A stretch of DNA of 64,000 nt from Actinobacteria bacterium casp-actino5 (GTDB taxonomy: Bacteria > Actinomycetota > Acidimicrobiia > Acidimicrobiales > Ilumatobacteraceae). Below are positions 53,946 through 62,057 of the stretch, piece by piece (position 1 is the first letter of the stretch; each line of letters starts with the position of its first letter). Location of the stretch: positions 1-64,000 of the forward strand of contig LFFE01000011.1 in NCBI GenBank assembly GCA_001510385.1, given 5' to 3'. Below the pieces are notes generated by a model, which was given only the letters and a program-made list of their open reading frames with translations, was not told the DNA's origin and did not search any database. Position numbers and translations under genes: made by a program.

Positions 53946-54191
53946 ATGGCAGTAAAGAAGGCTCCGGCCAAGAAGGCAGCAGCTAAGAAGGCTCCAGCCA
54001 AGAAAGCAGCAGCGAAGAAGGTTGCGAAGAAGGCTCCAGCTAAGAAGGCAGCAGCGAAGAAGGTTGCGAAGAAGGCTCCAGCTAAGAAGGCAGCAGCGAA
54101 GAAGGTTGCGAAGAAGGCTCCAGCCAAGAGGGCAGCAGCGAAGAAGGTTGCTAAGAAGGCTCCAGCCAAGAAAGCAGCTAAGAAGCGCTAA
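53946..54191 (+). CDS. Histone H1-like Lys/Ala-rich repeat protein (free-standing HU-tail equivalent)
   Basis: This 81-residue protein is almost wholly Lys, Ala and Pro in KAPAKKAAAKK and KVAKKAPAKKAAAK units, like eukaryotic H1 tails and the C-terminus of HupB. It should bind DNA nonspecifically. It lies in the same frame as hup: HU-TAA-four codons-TAA-ATG. AAGGA 11 bases before the ATG could be its ribosome-binding site. Translation as a separate protein, readthrough fusion to HU, or both are possible. A strong terminator follows. Confidence 0.85.
   Translation: MAVKKAPAKKAAAKKAPAKKAAAKKVAKKAPAKKAAAKKVAKKAPAKKAAAKKVAKKAPAKRAAAKKVAKKAPAKKAAKKR
53958..54187. repeat. 42-base tandem repeats of the Lys/Ala-rich gene
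   Basis: About four near-identical copies of a 42-base unit encoding 14 residues (KVAKKAPAKKAAAK) are visible, differing by a few silent or conservative changes. Confidence 0.8.
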
Positions 54192-56928: not shown

Positions 56929-57945
56929 ATGAGTACACCTCTTGATCTCAGCGCCCTTCGTCTGACGGAGTGGACGTCGTGTGGTGGCTGTGCGGCAAAG
57001 TGGGGAGCCTCACTGCTGTCTGATCTGGTAGCTGGCCTTCCGCAGTCGAATGATCCGTCACTCGTGGTCGGGCTCGCTCCGTTTGACGACGCAGCGGTCT
57101 ACAGAGTGAGCGACGACGTGGCAATGGTGTCAACCACCGATTTTTTCCCTCCACTCGTTGACGATCCTGCAGATTTTGGAGCGATAGCTGCGGCGAATGC
57201 CTGTAGCGATGTTTTTGCGATGGGAGCTTCGGTTGTGATGGCCATCAATGTGGCTGCATTTCCCGAGGAGTTTCCAAAAGAAGCAATTGCTGCGATCTTC
57301 ACTGCTGGGGCAGAAATTGTTGCCGAGGCTGGTGGAACTGTTGCTGGCGGTCACACCATTAGAAACCCTGAGCCGATTTATGGACTTGCTGTGCAGGGAG
57401 TCGTGCACCCAGACCGTATCCTTCGCAAGTCGGGTGCAAAACCAGGCGACGTCGTACTGCTCTCAAAGCCATTAGGAACGGGCCTTACGTTGGCGGCTGG
57501 CTCTGAGGGAGAAAAGTCAGCAGCAATCACCGGAATGAAGAACGTCAATCGACGCGCATCAGAACTGTTGGTGGCTGCAGGAAATTCAGTTCATGCCGTT
57601 ACTGACGTGACCGGCTACGGCCTTGCAGGGCATGGTTGGGAGGTTGCGCAACGTTCTGGCGTTCGACTCATCGTCGACACCAGCGCACTCGAGATGTACC
57701 CGGGGGCACTTCGGATTGCCGAAGATGGTGTCCGCACAGGTGGCGACCCGCGTAACCGTGAATACGTCGATGGTCATGTCGAAATGACTGCCGATGATGC
57801 TCGCGTCGCAATTTGCTATGACCCTCAGACGTCAGGCGGTCTGTTGGCTGCTGTGGAACCTGATTTGGCTGACGATCTTGTTGGTCGCGGGTTCTGGCGC
57901 GTCGGTGAAGTAGAAGCCGGTGTTGCAGGCATTGTGCTTGCATGA
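56929..57945 (+). CDS. selD: Selenide, water dikinase (selenophosphate synthetase)
   Basis: This 338-residue enzyme makes selenophosphate from selenide and ATP. Aligned to E. coli SelD, essential Cys17 is Cys21 and Lys20 is Lys24 in SCGGCAAKWG; the second Cys of GCGCK is Ala. Downstream, DDAAVY, STTDFFPPLVDDP, NACSDVFAMG, GGHTIRNPEPIYGLAV, VTDVTGYGLAGH and CDPQTSGGLL-like YDPQTSGGLLAAV are all conserved. It implies selenocysteine, selenouridine or a selenium cofactor elsewhere in the genome; selA, selB and tRNA-Sec are not in the window. It overlaps rnhB by 4 bases. Confidence 0.94.
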   Translation: MSTPLDLSALRLTEWTSCGGCAAKWGASLLSDLVAGLPQSNDPSLVVGLAPFDDAAVYRVSDDVAMVSTTDFFPPLVDDPADFGAIAAANACSDVFAMGASVVMAINVAAFPEEFPKEAIAAIFTAGAEIVAEAGGTVAGGHTIRNPEPIYGLAVQGVVHPDRILRKSGAKPGDVVLLSKPLGTGLTLAAGSEGEKSAAITGMKNVNRRASELLVAAGNSVHAVTDVTGYGLAGHGWEVAQRSGVRLIVDTSALEMYPGALRIAEDGVRTGGDPRNREYVDGHVEMTADDARVAICYDPQTSGGLLAAVEPDLADDLVGRGFWRVGEVEAGVAGIVLA

Positions 57946-58682: not shown

Positions 58683-59141
58683 TCACGCTTGCGCTGTTTC
58701 CTGACAGTTAGCGCATGTTCCAACAATGTCGATGTTGTGTCGGTCGACGGTGAACTTTGATCCAATTGCTGCTTTTTCGAATGCCTCATCCATCAGATGC
58801 TCGATGTGAGTTGGCAACTCGACGTCGATGACGACGTCACAGGAATGGCAAACGAGGTGGTGGTGATGGTGGCCGGTGAGTTCTTCAGAGAGTTCCCACC
58901 TTCCGTATTCGCCATGGTGAACGAGGCGACGAACCACTCCCATTTCCTCTAGAACCGTCAGATTTCGGTACGCGGAACTTTGGGCGATGCCGTCACTGAA
59001 CTCAAGAAGCTCAGGAAGGGTGCATGGCCCGGCCTGTGAAAGAGCATCTACAAGTTTCTGTCGCTTCTGGGTATACATCTGGCCAGCCTCATCGAGTTTT
59101 GTGGCGACGAGTTGGTGAAGACCAGAGTTGTCGAGGTTCAT
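58683..59141 (-). CDS. zur: Fur-family regulator, probably Zur
   Basis: This 152-residue protein has a winged helix (QKRQKLVDALSQAGPCTLPELLEF and AQSSAYRNLTVLEEMGVVRR) and the dimerisation/metal domain with HHHHHLVCHSC and CANC (two CxxC pairs for structural zinc). Genomic context, directly behind znuC and near znuAB, identifies it as the likely zinc-sensing repressor of the locus rather than Fur or PerR (inference). It is probably cotranscribed with znuC (32-base gap). Confidence 0.85.
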   Translation of the reverse strand: MNLDNSGLHQLVATKLDEAGQMYTQKRQKLVDALSQAGPCTLPELLEFSDGIAQSSAYRNLTVLEEMGVVRRLVHHGEYGRWELSEELTGHHHHHLVCHSCDVVIDVELPTHIEHLMDEAFEKAAIGSKFTVDRHNIDIVGTCANCQETAQA

Positions 59142-59173: not shown

Positions 59174-59968
59174 TCAGTGTGAGTGATCGTGATGGCTGTG
59201 GTCGTGATGATCGAGGTGACCAGACAGTTCTGTTGTGGGATGGTGATCAGAATCATGGTGGTGTTCATCGACAACCAGGGTGGCGGTTTGGTCACTGACC
59301 ATCCTTCCACCAAATGCCTCAGCAAGCAGTGCTGGCGTTAACACTTCCTCAGGCGTTCCATCGGCAAGCACGCACCCCGCAAGAAGGACAACACGGTCTG
59401 CACAGCGTGCCTCGCCGAGGTGGTGGGTAGAGAACACAACGGCTGCACCTCGTGCTGCTTCGTCGGCGATGACGTGAAGAATGATTTCTTGACTGGGGAG
59501 ATCAAGCCCAGTGATTGGTTCGTCGAGTAGGACGAGATCGGCCGACGAGGCAATCGCTCGGGCGACGATGACCCGTTGGCGTTCGCCGCCCGAGAGTTCA
59601 CCGAATCGCCGAGATCGCAGGTGCGAAATATCGAGTCGCTCGGCTGCTGTATCGATAGCGCGGCGATCTTCCGACCGAAGACGGTGGAGGAGGCCTCGGT
59701 AGCGACCCATTCTCAGCACTTCATCAACTGACATTGGCATCCATGCATGGTGTGTTTGGTCTTGAGCAACGAACGCCACTTGTGGGGCGCCGCTCACGTT
59801 GCCATCGGTTGGCTCAAGAATTCCTGCTAGCACATGGAGAAGGGTGGTTTTGCCGCTGCCGTTAGCACCGACGAGAGCGAGTATCTCTCCTGACGAGATG
59901 CTTAGAGAGCATGGGGCAAGGCAGATCGTCGAGCGCCGATGCACACAGATATCTGAAATCGAAATCAA
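59174..59968 (-). CDS. znuC: Zinc/manganese ABC transporter ATPase with a His-rich C-terminal tail
   Basis: This 264-residue ABC ATPase has LVGANGSGKTTLLH (Walker A near 34-41), the LSGGERQRVIVARA signature, VLLDEPITGLD and the STHHLGEA H-loop. The last 32 or so residues are dominated by His and Asp (HHHDSDHH and LDHHDHSHHDHSH), unusual for the cytoplasmic ATPase and likely to bind metal. It starts with TTG. It is divergent from znuA, so the importer genes lie in two units around a shared control region. Confidence 0.9.
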   Translation of the reverse strand: MISISDICVHRRSTICLAPCSLSISSGEILALVGANGSGKTTLLHVLAGILEPTDGNVSGAPQVAFVAQDQTHHAWMPMSVDEVLRMGRYRGLLHRLRSEDRRAIDTAAERLDISHLRSRRFGELSGGERQRVIVARAIASSADLVLLDEPITGLDLPSQEIILHVIADEAARGAAVVFSTHHLGEARCADRVVLLAGCVLADGTPEEVLTPALLAEAFGGRMVSDQTATLVVDEHHHDSDHHPTTELSGHLDHHDHSHHDHSH

Positions 59969-60029: not shown

Positions 60030-60031
60030 AA
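60010..60031. promoter_or_regulatory. Candidate Zur operator covering the znuA -10
   Basis: A 22-base imperfect palindrome (9 of 11 positions symmetric; arms TTATGG and CCATAA) covers the -10 element. A second partly symmetric sequence with core AGAATGATTCT follows at 60034-60044, resembling Fur/Zur boxes. Both fit Zur repression of the divergent znu units. Confidence 0.5.
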
Positions 60032-60036
60032 TGAGA

Positions 60037-61185
60037 ATGATTCTTACTCTTGACCAGTGTCGTCGTCGGTATCTCGCAGGTTTTGCCGCATCAGGTTTGT
60101 TTCTTGCAGCGTGCGGGGGAGGAGGCTCCGACTCAGCATTGTCAAACTTGACCGCCCTCGCCACCACCTCAATTTGGGCCGACGTCACTTCGAACGCTCT
60201 ATGCGGGGCACCGGTCGAGAGCATTATCCCCTTGGGGGCAGACCCTCACTCGTGGGAGCCTTCGATTCGGGTGCCAGAAGATATTGCGGCCGCTGATCTT
60301 CTCGTCCGTAATGGACTCTTTTTAGAAGAGGGGCTTCTGGCAACCCTTGATGCGGTCGACGAAAGTGTCACCCCTGTGGTCTCCATAGCGACTCTTATCG
60401 CGTCTGGAGAAGAGGACGATCACGTGGATCATGACGATCATGACGATGAGGCTGACCATGCGGATCATGACGATGAGGCTGATCACGATGATCATGACGA
60501 TGAGGCTGACCATGCGGATCATGACGATGAGGCTGATCACGATGATCATGACGACCATGCGGATCATGACGATGAGGCTGATCACGATGATCATGACGAC
60601 CATGCGGATCATGACGATGAGGCTGATCACGATGATCACGACGACCACCACCATTCAGGCCCCGACCCTCACCTCTGGATGGATCCAACCTTTGTTGCTG
60701 AAGCCGCAACGTTGATCGCTGACGCAGCCGTCGAGGCGGGTTGGCCTGAAAGCGTGAAAGATTGCGCTGCCGACTACTCAGGTCAACTTGCAGCCCTCGA
60801 CGAGGAAATTGCCTCACAAGTCTCGGTTGTTGATGCAGGTGATCGAGTGCTCGTGACGAACCATGACGCGTTTGGACGATTTGCCGAACGCTATGGATTC
60901 ACAGTTCTCGGAACCATCCTGCCTTCGATGAGCACGCTGGCTGAGGCCAACCCTGCCGATCTAACGGCTCTTGCTGAAGAAATTCTTGCGGCAGGGGTAA
61001 GCACGATTTTCTACGACCTTCAATCGAGCAGCGTCGACGCCGAGTCTCTGGCAGAGCGTCTCGATGGAGTGGAAGTTGCTGCGCTCCTCACAGGCTCGCT
61101 TGTTGAAGACCCTGAAGTGGGGGCGGACTACATCACGATGATGCAGACAAATGTTCAGAGGATTCTCTCCGCAATCGGGGGCTGA
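60037..61185 (+). CDS. znuA: Zinc-binding ABC transporter lipoprotein ZnuA with long Asp/His repeat
   Basis: This 382-residue solute-binding lipoprotein (lipobox FLAAC followed by a Gly run) delivers zinc to ZnuBC. Cluster A-I ligands are visible: His in LGADPHSWEPS, His in GPDPHLWMDP, His in TNHDAFGRFAERYG and the acidic residue in FYDLQSSS. Between the first two ligands lies a loop of about 80 residues (127-207) made only of His, Asp, Glu and Ala repeats; most ZnuA loops are far shorter. The ATG at 60037 fits the leaderless promoter; ATG 60031 is two codons earlier. Confidence 0.94.
   Translation: MILTLDQCRRRYLAGFAASGLFLAACGGGGSDSALSNLTALATTSIWADVTSNALCGAPVESIIPLGADPHSWEPSIRVPEDIAAADLLVRNGLFLEEGLLATLDAVDESVTPVVSIATLIASGEEDDHVDHDDHDDEADHADHDDEADHDDHDDEADHADHDDEADHDDHDDHADHDDEADHDDHDDHADHDDEADHDDHDDHHHSGPDPHLWMDPTFVAEAATLIADAAVEAGWPESVKDCAADYSGQLAALDEEIASQVSVVDAGDRVLVTNHDAFGRFAERYGFTVLGTILPSMSTLAEANPADLTALAEEILAAGVSTIFYDLQSSSVDAESLAERLDGVEVAALLTGSLVEDPEVGADYITMMQTNVQRILSAIGG
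60436..60650. repeat. 45-base tandem repeat encoding the Asp/His loop of ZnuA
   Basis: About four near-identical copies of a 45-base unit (15 residues of Asp, His, Glu and Ala) are preceded by partial units. Near-identity at silent sites indicates recent duplication. Copy number may vary or be misassembled. Confidence 0.85.
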
Positions 61186-61199
61186 ACCCCCGCAGTAGC

Positions 61200-62057
61200 A
61201 TGCAACCGATGGGCTGGTTGACGAATCCAATCGAATGGTGGATCAATCCGTTCATTGACAGCGCGATTATGCGAGATGCTCTTCTCGCGGGCCTTCTTAC
61301 TGTGCTGGGAGCATCAATCGTCGGAACCTGGGTAGTGCTGAGAGGTCTCACATTTCTTGGTGATGCGTTGGCGCAAGGTGTGCTCCCGGGGATTGCAGTT
61401 GCATGGGCCTTAAGTGTTGACCCGCAGCTCGGCGCCTTAGTCGCTGCCCTTGCAATGGTCGCAGGGGTGAACATTATTCGCTCTTCTTCGCCATTACCTG
61501 ACGATGTTTCTCTCGGAATTCTGTGCGTTGGCTTTCTAGCTCTTGCGGTCGTGCTGATGTCAGCCCGAGGTGGATTTGGTGATTTGAACCGCTTCCTCTT
61601 TGGCTCGATCACTGGTGTCGACCAGCAGGGGATAATTCGGTCAGCGATCTTCGCAGGTCTCACGATCGTGTTCGCAACGGTCGGTTACCGCGCGATGATC
61701 ATGTCGACGTTTGACCCCGCACAAGCGAAAATCGCAGGATTCTCACCCCGGGCTGTCCATTTCGCCTTACTCGTGATGACCGCTCTCACCGTGGTGAATT
61801 CATTCGAAACTGTCGGGTCGCTGCTTGTCTTTGCGTTTCTCATCGCCCCTCCGACAACAGCATCGCTGTTGGTGAAAAGCGTTCCAAGAATTATTGGACT
61901 ATCGGTTGTGCTAGGTGCCCTTGCCGCCATCATCGGGCTACTCATCAGCTATCACCATCGAACCGCCGCTGGTGCGACGATGGCACTTGTCAGCGTGATG
62001 CTGTTTTTCCTTGGCCTCATCAGCTACAACATCCGCATTCGCGCATTTTCGGCCTAG
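61200..62057 (+). CDS. znuB: Zinc/manganese ABC transporter permease ZnuB
   Basis: This 285-residue ABC-3 family permease has about eight membrane helices. It includes GTWVVLRGLTFLGDALAQGVLPGIA (the GD...H/Q segment typical of ABC-3 permeases), GFLALAVVLMSARGG and ALTVVNSFETVGSLLVFAFLIAPPTTA, the conserved region contacting the ATPase. It lies 14 bases downstream of znuA and completes the importer. Confidence 0.93.
   Translation: MQPMGWLTNPIEWWINPFIDSAIMRDALLAGLLTVLGASIVGTWVVLRGLTFLGDALAQGVLPGIAVAWALSVDPQLGALVAALAMVAGVNIIRSSSPLPDDVSLGILCVGFLALAVVLMSARGGFGDLNRFLFGSITGVDQQGIIRSAIFAGLTIVFATVGYRAMIMSTFDPAQAKIAGFSPRAVHFALLVMTALTVVNSFETVGSLLVFAFLIAPPTTASLLVKSVPRIIGLSVVLGALAAIIGLLISYHHRTAAGATMALVSVMLFFLGLISYNIRIRAFSA

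Follow-up and report, generated by a model that had tools for sequence, protein, structure and literature searches.

The ZnuA proteins of E. coli, Salmonella, Citrobacter koseri and Synechocystis contain a disordered loop with His and acidic residues, placed before the second His ligand of the zinc site. These loops range from 12 to 50 residues in the excerpted text of PMC4542158, where the longest one named is the 50-residue His-rich region of Haemophilus influenzae ZnuA. The same excerpt gives the loop a micromolar affinity and describes it as not essential for the high-affinity site, and its role was called enigmatic in 2022 (PMC8900738, in excerpt). For AdcA, the excerpt of PMC7858048 reports that loss of the loop alone has no significant effect on growth and that, under zinc restriction, the loop affects growth only if the partner domain is lost as well. 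PA4063 of Pseudomonas aeruginosa resembles ZnuA in being a zinc-binding periplasmic protein, and the number of His in its second His-rich region ranges from 3 to 10 within the species (PMC4542158), but unlike ZnuA it has a ferredoxin-like fold and is not a cluster A-I binding protein according to the excerpt of PMC8561739. Within a PubMed Central collection, searched by set terms at the level of titles and abstract openings, none of the papers listed dealt with tandem repeats or variable copy number in this loop of ZnuA; in the excerpted text of PMC3794297 "tandem repeat" stands within a reference title, and in that of PMC3872050 the search terms occur only in the reference list.

The window analysed here is a stretch of 64,000 nucleotides from Actinobacteria bacterium casp-actino5 (Ilumatobacteraceae). 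The loop of its ZnuA agrees with the described loops in protein family, in its place before the second His, in its His and acidic residues and in its disorder. It differs in its length of 82 residues, which exceeds that of the H. influenzae region, in being dominated by Asp and in being encoded by exact tandem DNA repeats. Longer loops at the same place, also D/E/H-rich and built of tandem units, occur in ZnuA proteins from Nitriliruptoraceae and from the family to which the window belongs (among them L010, L102, L191 and L194), with repeat units unlike those of the window. The window loop belongs to a known class of loops, within which it is long and recently expanded.

The znu locus and the predicted ZnuA structure

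The znuA gene (60031-61185, forward strand) encodes a zinc ABC transporter substrate-binding lipoprotein of 384 residues counted from the ATG at 60031, with the ATG at 60037 as the other possible start. The protein matches the PF01297 profile with 157.5 bits (cut-off 29; E = 5.9e-46), is the single PF01297 match in the source genome (G000; 1.90 Mb, 32 contigs) and carries the lipobox LAAC at residues 25-28, as read from the sequence. An AlphaFold model based on an alignment of 50 sequences has pLDDT values of at least 90 at 225 of the 384 residues and presents the two-lobed fold typical of cluster A-I binding proteins. The top Foldseek match of the model is MntC (1xvl; E = 1.7e-16, TM-score by target 0.83), other matches include TroA (1toa) and AztC (5w57), all of them cluster A-I metal-binding proteins, and E. 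coli ZnuA (2osv; E = 4.9e-12) ranks fiftieth among the best 50 rows. The leading matches are a mixture of Mn, Zn and Fe binders, so that it is the three-His site, the loop and the locus that point to zinc as the substrate. His73, His214 and His278 are invariant across the 50 ZnuA sequences and by analogy correspond to the three His zinc ligands described in the excerpts of PMC4542158 and PMC8900738. Profile, fold, the three His residues, the locus and the position of the loop all fit membership of ZnuA (PF01297, cluster A-I), as the initial annotation had proposed, and the protein is predicted to be an ordinary zinc importer protein with high-affinity zinc binding and uptake.

The loop comprises residues 127-208 (60409-60654, forward strand; numbering from the ATG at 60031) and is composed of 41 Asp, 22 His, 10 Ala, 8 Glu and a single Val, which bears out the earlier description of a stretch at 60415-60657 made almost entirely of Asp, His, Glu and Ala. 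The mean pLDDT is 46-48 in each ten-residue block from residue 131 to 200, and the second ligand, His214, lies six residues past the end of the loop, at the usual place of a ZnuA His-rich loop. The model has a loop predicted to be disordered beside an intact three-His site. Elsewhere in the source genome, a NuoL-like protein (G000:C16, L152, 1282-3714, reverse strand; 810 residues, named by eye) has an insert rich in His and Asp, about 45 residues long, whose last residues are HGPHESP, and a similar stretch is present in the congener G008.

The permease gene znuB (61200-62057, forward strand; PF00950, E = 6.1e-55) lies downstream of znuA, and the divergent genes upstream encode the ATPase ZnuC (59174-59968, reverse strand; PF00005, E = 3.6e-27) and a Fur-family regulator (58683-59141, reverse strand; PF01475, E = 4.2e-14), which from its context is probably Zur rather than Fur. 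ZnuC ends in a His-rich C-terminal tail, HHDHSHHDHSH, and similar tails are present in the congeners L006, L007, L015 and L020; together with the ZnuA loop, such a tail means that His-rich stretches may flank the membrane on both sides in the transporter. At 56929-57945 (forward strand) there is a selenophosphate synthetase-like gene, judged by eye, with SCGGCAAK near the N-terminus of its product.

The start codon of znuA is covered by a near-perfect 15-bp palindrome, TGAGAATGATTCTTA (60032-60046, no strand assigned), a probable Zur operator, read as a Zur box from the general form of Fur-family boxes. The sequence TGAGAATNATTCTNA occurs in 10 of the 16 genomes of the genus, at one or two places in each, and in all ten one copy lies at the znuA start; its reversed control gave no match in the 16 genomes. 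Among the six genomes without it, two have no znuA match and G012 lacks the 5' part of the gene, and in G001, G003 and G007 the 5' part of znuA is present with no exact match to TGAGAATNATTCTNA. From the sequence, znuA is probably controlled by Zur through the candidate operator at 60032-60046. Most congener ZnuA proteins begin with an RMIL-like peptide that goes with the palindrome, and this peptide would be a by-product of the operator if the palindrome is indeed one. Second copies of the palindrome lie outside znu at G014:C12:78478, G006:C33:4504 and G015:C97:4052 and may mark further regulon members.

Repeat units and copy number of the loop DNA

The loop DNA contains a tandem array of 9-base words at 60427-60642 (forward strand), detected by Tandem Repeats Finder at 60427-60644 with a period of 45, 4.4 copies, 89% matches, 8% indels and a score of 277. 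Four exact words make up the array, A (GATCATGAC), a (GATCACGAT), B (GATGAGGCT) and C (GACCATGCG), and from 60427 to 60633 their order is AAB CABaAB CABaA CABaA CABa, after which come a variant word and a degenerate end. The higher-order units are one of 54 bases (60454-60507) and three of 45 bases (60508-60552, 60553-60597 and 60598-60642, the last ending imperfectly). The earlier count of about four near-identical 45-base units was right as to the repeats and wrong as to the units, the word order ruling out a structure of four 45-mers. Open reading frames on the antisense strand or in other frames over the array were also rejected as genes, as a repeat of a multiple of three bases without stop codons opens several frames by itself. 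A separate 42-bp tandem array at 53985-54178 has 4.6 copies with 95% matches, and its unit is Lys/Ala/Pro-rich on the forward strand, presumably resembling the tail of some DNA-binding proteins.

The longest exact repeat in the loop is 86 bp, in two overlapping copies starting at 60508 and 60553 (60508-60638, forward strand). When the loop's own codons were reassigned synonymously with the protein kept, the longest exact repeat averaged 21 bp and reached at most 48 bp (300 shuffles), and shuffling of the codon order gave at most 21 bp (300 shuffles). The observed repeat is far above these values, indicating duplication of DNA and not merely a biased amino acid make-up, and the still matching silent sites make the duplication recent. 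Both the agreement of silent sites between units and the recent expansion had been put forward in the initial annotation and are upheld here.

An array of this kind invites the question of whether its assembled length in the window is wrong. Relatives were sampled at one genome per species, and in 4 of the 13 congeners with znuA (G004, G006, G012 and G014) contigs end inside the loop, at its edge or no more than 65 bp away from it; 2 of the 15 congeners gave no znuA match. The number of breaks expected at the loop is about 0.33 and the probability of at least four is 2e-4, assuming that breaks are spread evenly and that the target measures 300 bp, with contig counts rounded and with one G004 end lying 64 bp outside the loop. 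As controls, znuB was matched in one piece in all 13 congeners and znuC in 12, with G012 giving only a weak paralogue. Most of the flanking DNA of G004 is 92-94% identical to the window, falling to 89% in the 222 bp nearest before the loop, and its ZnuB protein is 100% identical; one of its contigs stops 64 bp before the loop and the other starts two codons before the loop end. These breaks, together with ambiguous bases in the G014 array, indicate that the locus is hard for assemblers. Within the window, by contrast, the word order is not uniform, ordinary reads would be able to bridge an 86-bp exact repeat, and an error would sooner shorten than lengthen the array; moreover, longer loops lie within single long contigs in G027 (one contig) and G440 (a 5.56-Mb contig). 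We therefore regard an assembly artefact in the window as highly improbable.

In the assemblies, close lineages carry different copy numbers. The flanks of the znuA loop are 95.6-95.9% identical between the congeners G014 and G015. G015 has one full 45-bp unit of window-type words and one partial unit, whereas in G014 four full units, a few of their bases ambiguous, precede the end of the contig, and a second contig begins inside the array. The difference amounts to at least three 45-bp units, and because the first and last units agree it consists of whole units in register; a contig break interrupts the G014 array, and the G015 assembly may have collapsed here, in which case the difference would be artefactual. 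The ambiguous bases inside the G014 array (L031, G014:C59) are as expected if several copies or strains were merged.

Long loops in Actinomycetota and possible selection on their composition

D/E/H-rich loops of at least 40 residues were collected from 43 loci, of which 41 remained distinct after the duplicate pairs L058/L193 and L116/L186 were taken out. The counts cover frames with the anchor motifs; loops broken by contig ends were left out of the counts and the tree, as were, by hand, loci repeating an earlier locus. With 81 residues by this comparative measure, the window loop shares tenth place with L046, and 9 of the 40 other distinct loops are longer, up to 109 residues with 32 His. 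These nine rule out a unique loop length and make that of the window unexceptional in this part of Actinomycetota, so that the earlier statement that ZnuA loops typically have a few dozen residues or fewer agrees with the 12 to 50 in the excerpt of PMC4542158 and fails for the relatives. The repeat unit is DEDHA in G027, HAHDEDED in G033, HGDEE in G016, DDHGH in G019 and DDDDGHGH in G510, G027 and G033 being one-contig genomes. Within the genus, loop length runs from 21 to 90 residues by one measure, the shortest stretch (G013, L020) containing one His. In a clade of 35 other actinobacteria, including Streptomyces, Rhodococcus and Microbacterium, the counterpart of the loop has 10 to 23 residues, with the exception of Nocardiopsis sinuspersici with 44.

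Of 396 genomes drawn evenly from Actinomycetota, a strict pattern flagged 42, the window's own among them. On translation, 26 (including the window's) have a D/E/H-rich stretch before a DPHxW-type motif, although for two of these (G450 and G430) no downstream His motif was visible in the fragment; G428 and G320 have a D/H-rich-looking pattern match that falls outside the script criteria, and the remaining 14 flagged genomes have no D/E/H-rich stretch. A family-level pattern search allowing 3 mismatches (30 of 200 genomes) produced many GC-rich chance matches and its tally was not used. The ZnuA relative L155 (G081:C285) has an Asp/His-rich N-terminal region directly after the lipobox in addition to a D/E/H-rich stretch before DPHxW.

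Long loops tend to sit together on the tree and still change frequently. On a quick tree in which 28 of 80 inner branches are open, the long state (at least 45 residues, 30 of 83 rows) requires 10 changes, at least 6 of them forced by starred branches, compared with 24.7 in shuffles. The sample is not random, as L153-L164 were added for looking long, and with rows partly picked for length the 30 of 83 is no frequency.

Among the 2688 residues of the 41 loops, 2618 (97.4%) are Asp, His, Glu, Gly, Ala or Ser. Between units of 37 arrays the pooled pS is 0.41 and pN 0.19, a ratio of 0.47 compared with 0.70 for random codon pairs from the same loops, and pN is below pS in 28 arrays. An array was accepted if its units had a DNA identity of 0.65 or more, and the lag was chosen on DNA with the random-pair control, as a lag chosen on amino acids favors low pN. 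A make-up limited to Asp, Glu and His lowers pN by itself, so these sequence data make only a moderate case for selection on loop composition, which is favored, though not strongly. The loop could instead be the product of neutral slippage, in which a repeat-prone Asp/His-coding stretch grows and shrinks in a tolerant disordered loop with zinc uptake unaffected. The wide range of loop lengths within the genus, the different units of different lineages, the short stretch of G013 and the 9 of 37 arrays with pN at or above pS are what such slippage would produce. It accounts poorly for the rarity of residues whose codons are a single base change from those of His and Asp (Gln 8, Tyr 6, Asn 5 and Arg 2, in total 21 of the 2688) where silent sites do differ, and for the clustering of the long state on the tree, which relatedness alone can also yield. 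Neutral slippage thus appears unlikely, while keeping some weight as an explanation.

A possible antenna for scarce zinc

We propose that the window loop serves as a low-affinity, exchangeable zinc antenna that retains its composition through turnover of its repeat DNA, and give this reading as a whole a probability of about 0.6. The high-capacity zinc sponge at the cell surface, perhaps adapted to scarce zinc, that the initial annotation suggested was a reasonable conjecture on function. The known His-rich loop of ZnuA would have been lengthened through in-frame tandem duplication of a DNA minisatellite, yielding an unfolded loop predicted to hang just before His214, next to the binding cleft. 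Under zinc scarcity, with Zur off, the antenna would raise the local supply of zinc for the three-His site and the permease. Selection would act on the Asp/Glu/His make-up and not on a particular sequence, so that slippage can change unit and length quickly. Allowing two to four His per zinc, the 22 His residues might form perhaps 5 to 11 weak zinc sites. We infer zinc binding by the loop and an antenna role in the same way as control by Zur, and the AdcA result, in which loss of the loop alone had no growth effect, lowered our odds for the antenna to the value given.

The micromolar affinity reported in the excerpt of PMC4542158 would also suit a sensor or brake, in which the loop binds plentiful zinc and slows its transfer to the permease. 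This role was proposed by Wei 2007, as cited in the excerpts of PMC8900738 and PMC4542158, and is among the proposals in section 3.3 of the former. The sequence offers nothing in its favor, and a gene that Zur probably shuts off when zinc is abundant would have little need for another brake this large, which makes a braking function improbable for the window loop.

The ZnuA loop could also be a hypermutable, frame-safe tuning locus, in which units of a multiple of three bases let populations step their zinc-buffering capacity, and which evolved independently in several actinobacterial lineages, largely unseen as draft assemblies break or shorten such loci; we put this forward as a doubtful, speculative reading. 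Of more interest than the length of the window loop itself are the differing units from which lineages make their loops and the loss of such loops from assemblies. The contig breaks are also a warning that counts of long metal-binding loops taken from draft genomes may be too low. The natural length series among the close relatives G000, G014 and G015 makes it possible to ask directly whether zinc capture is set by the length of the loop.
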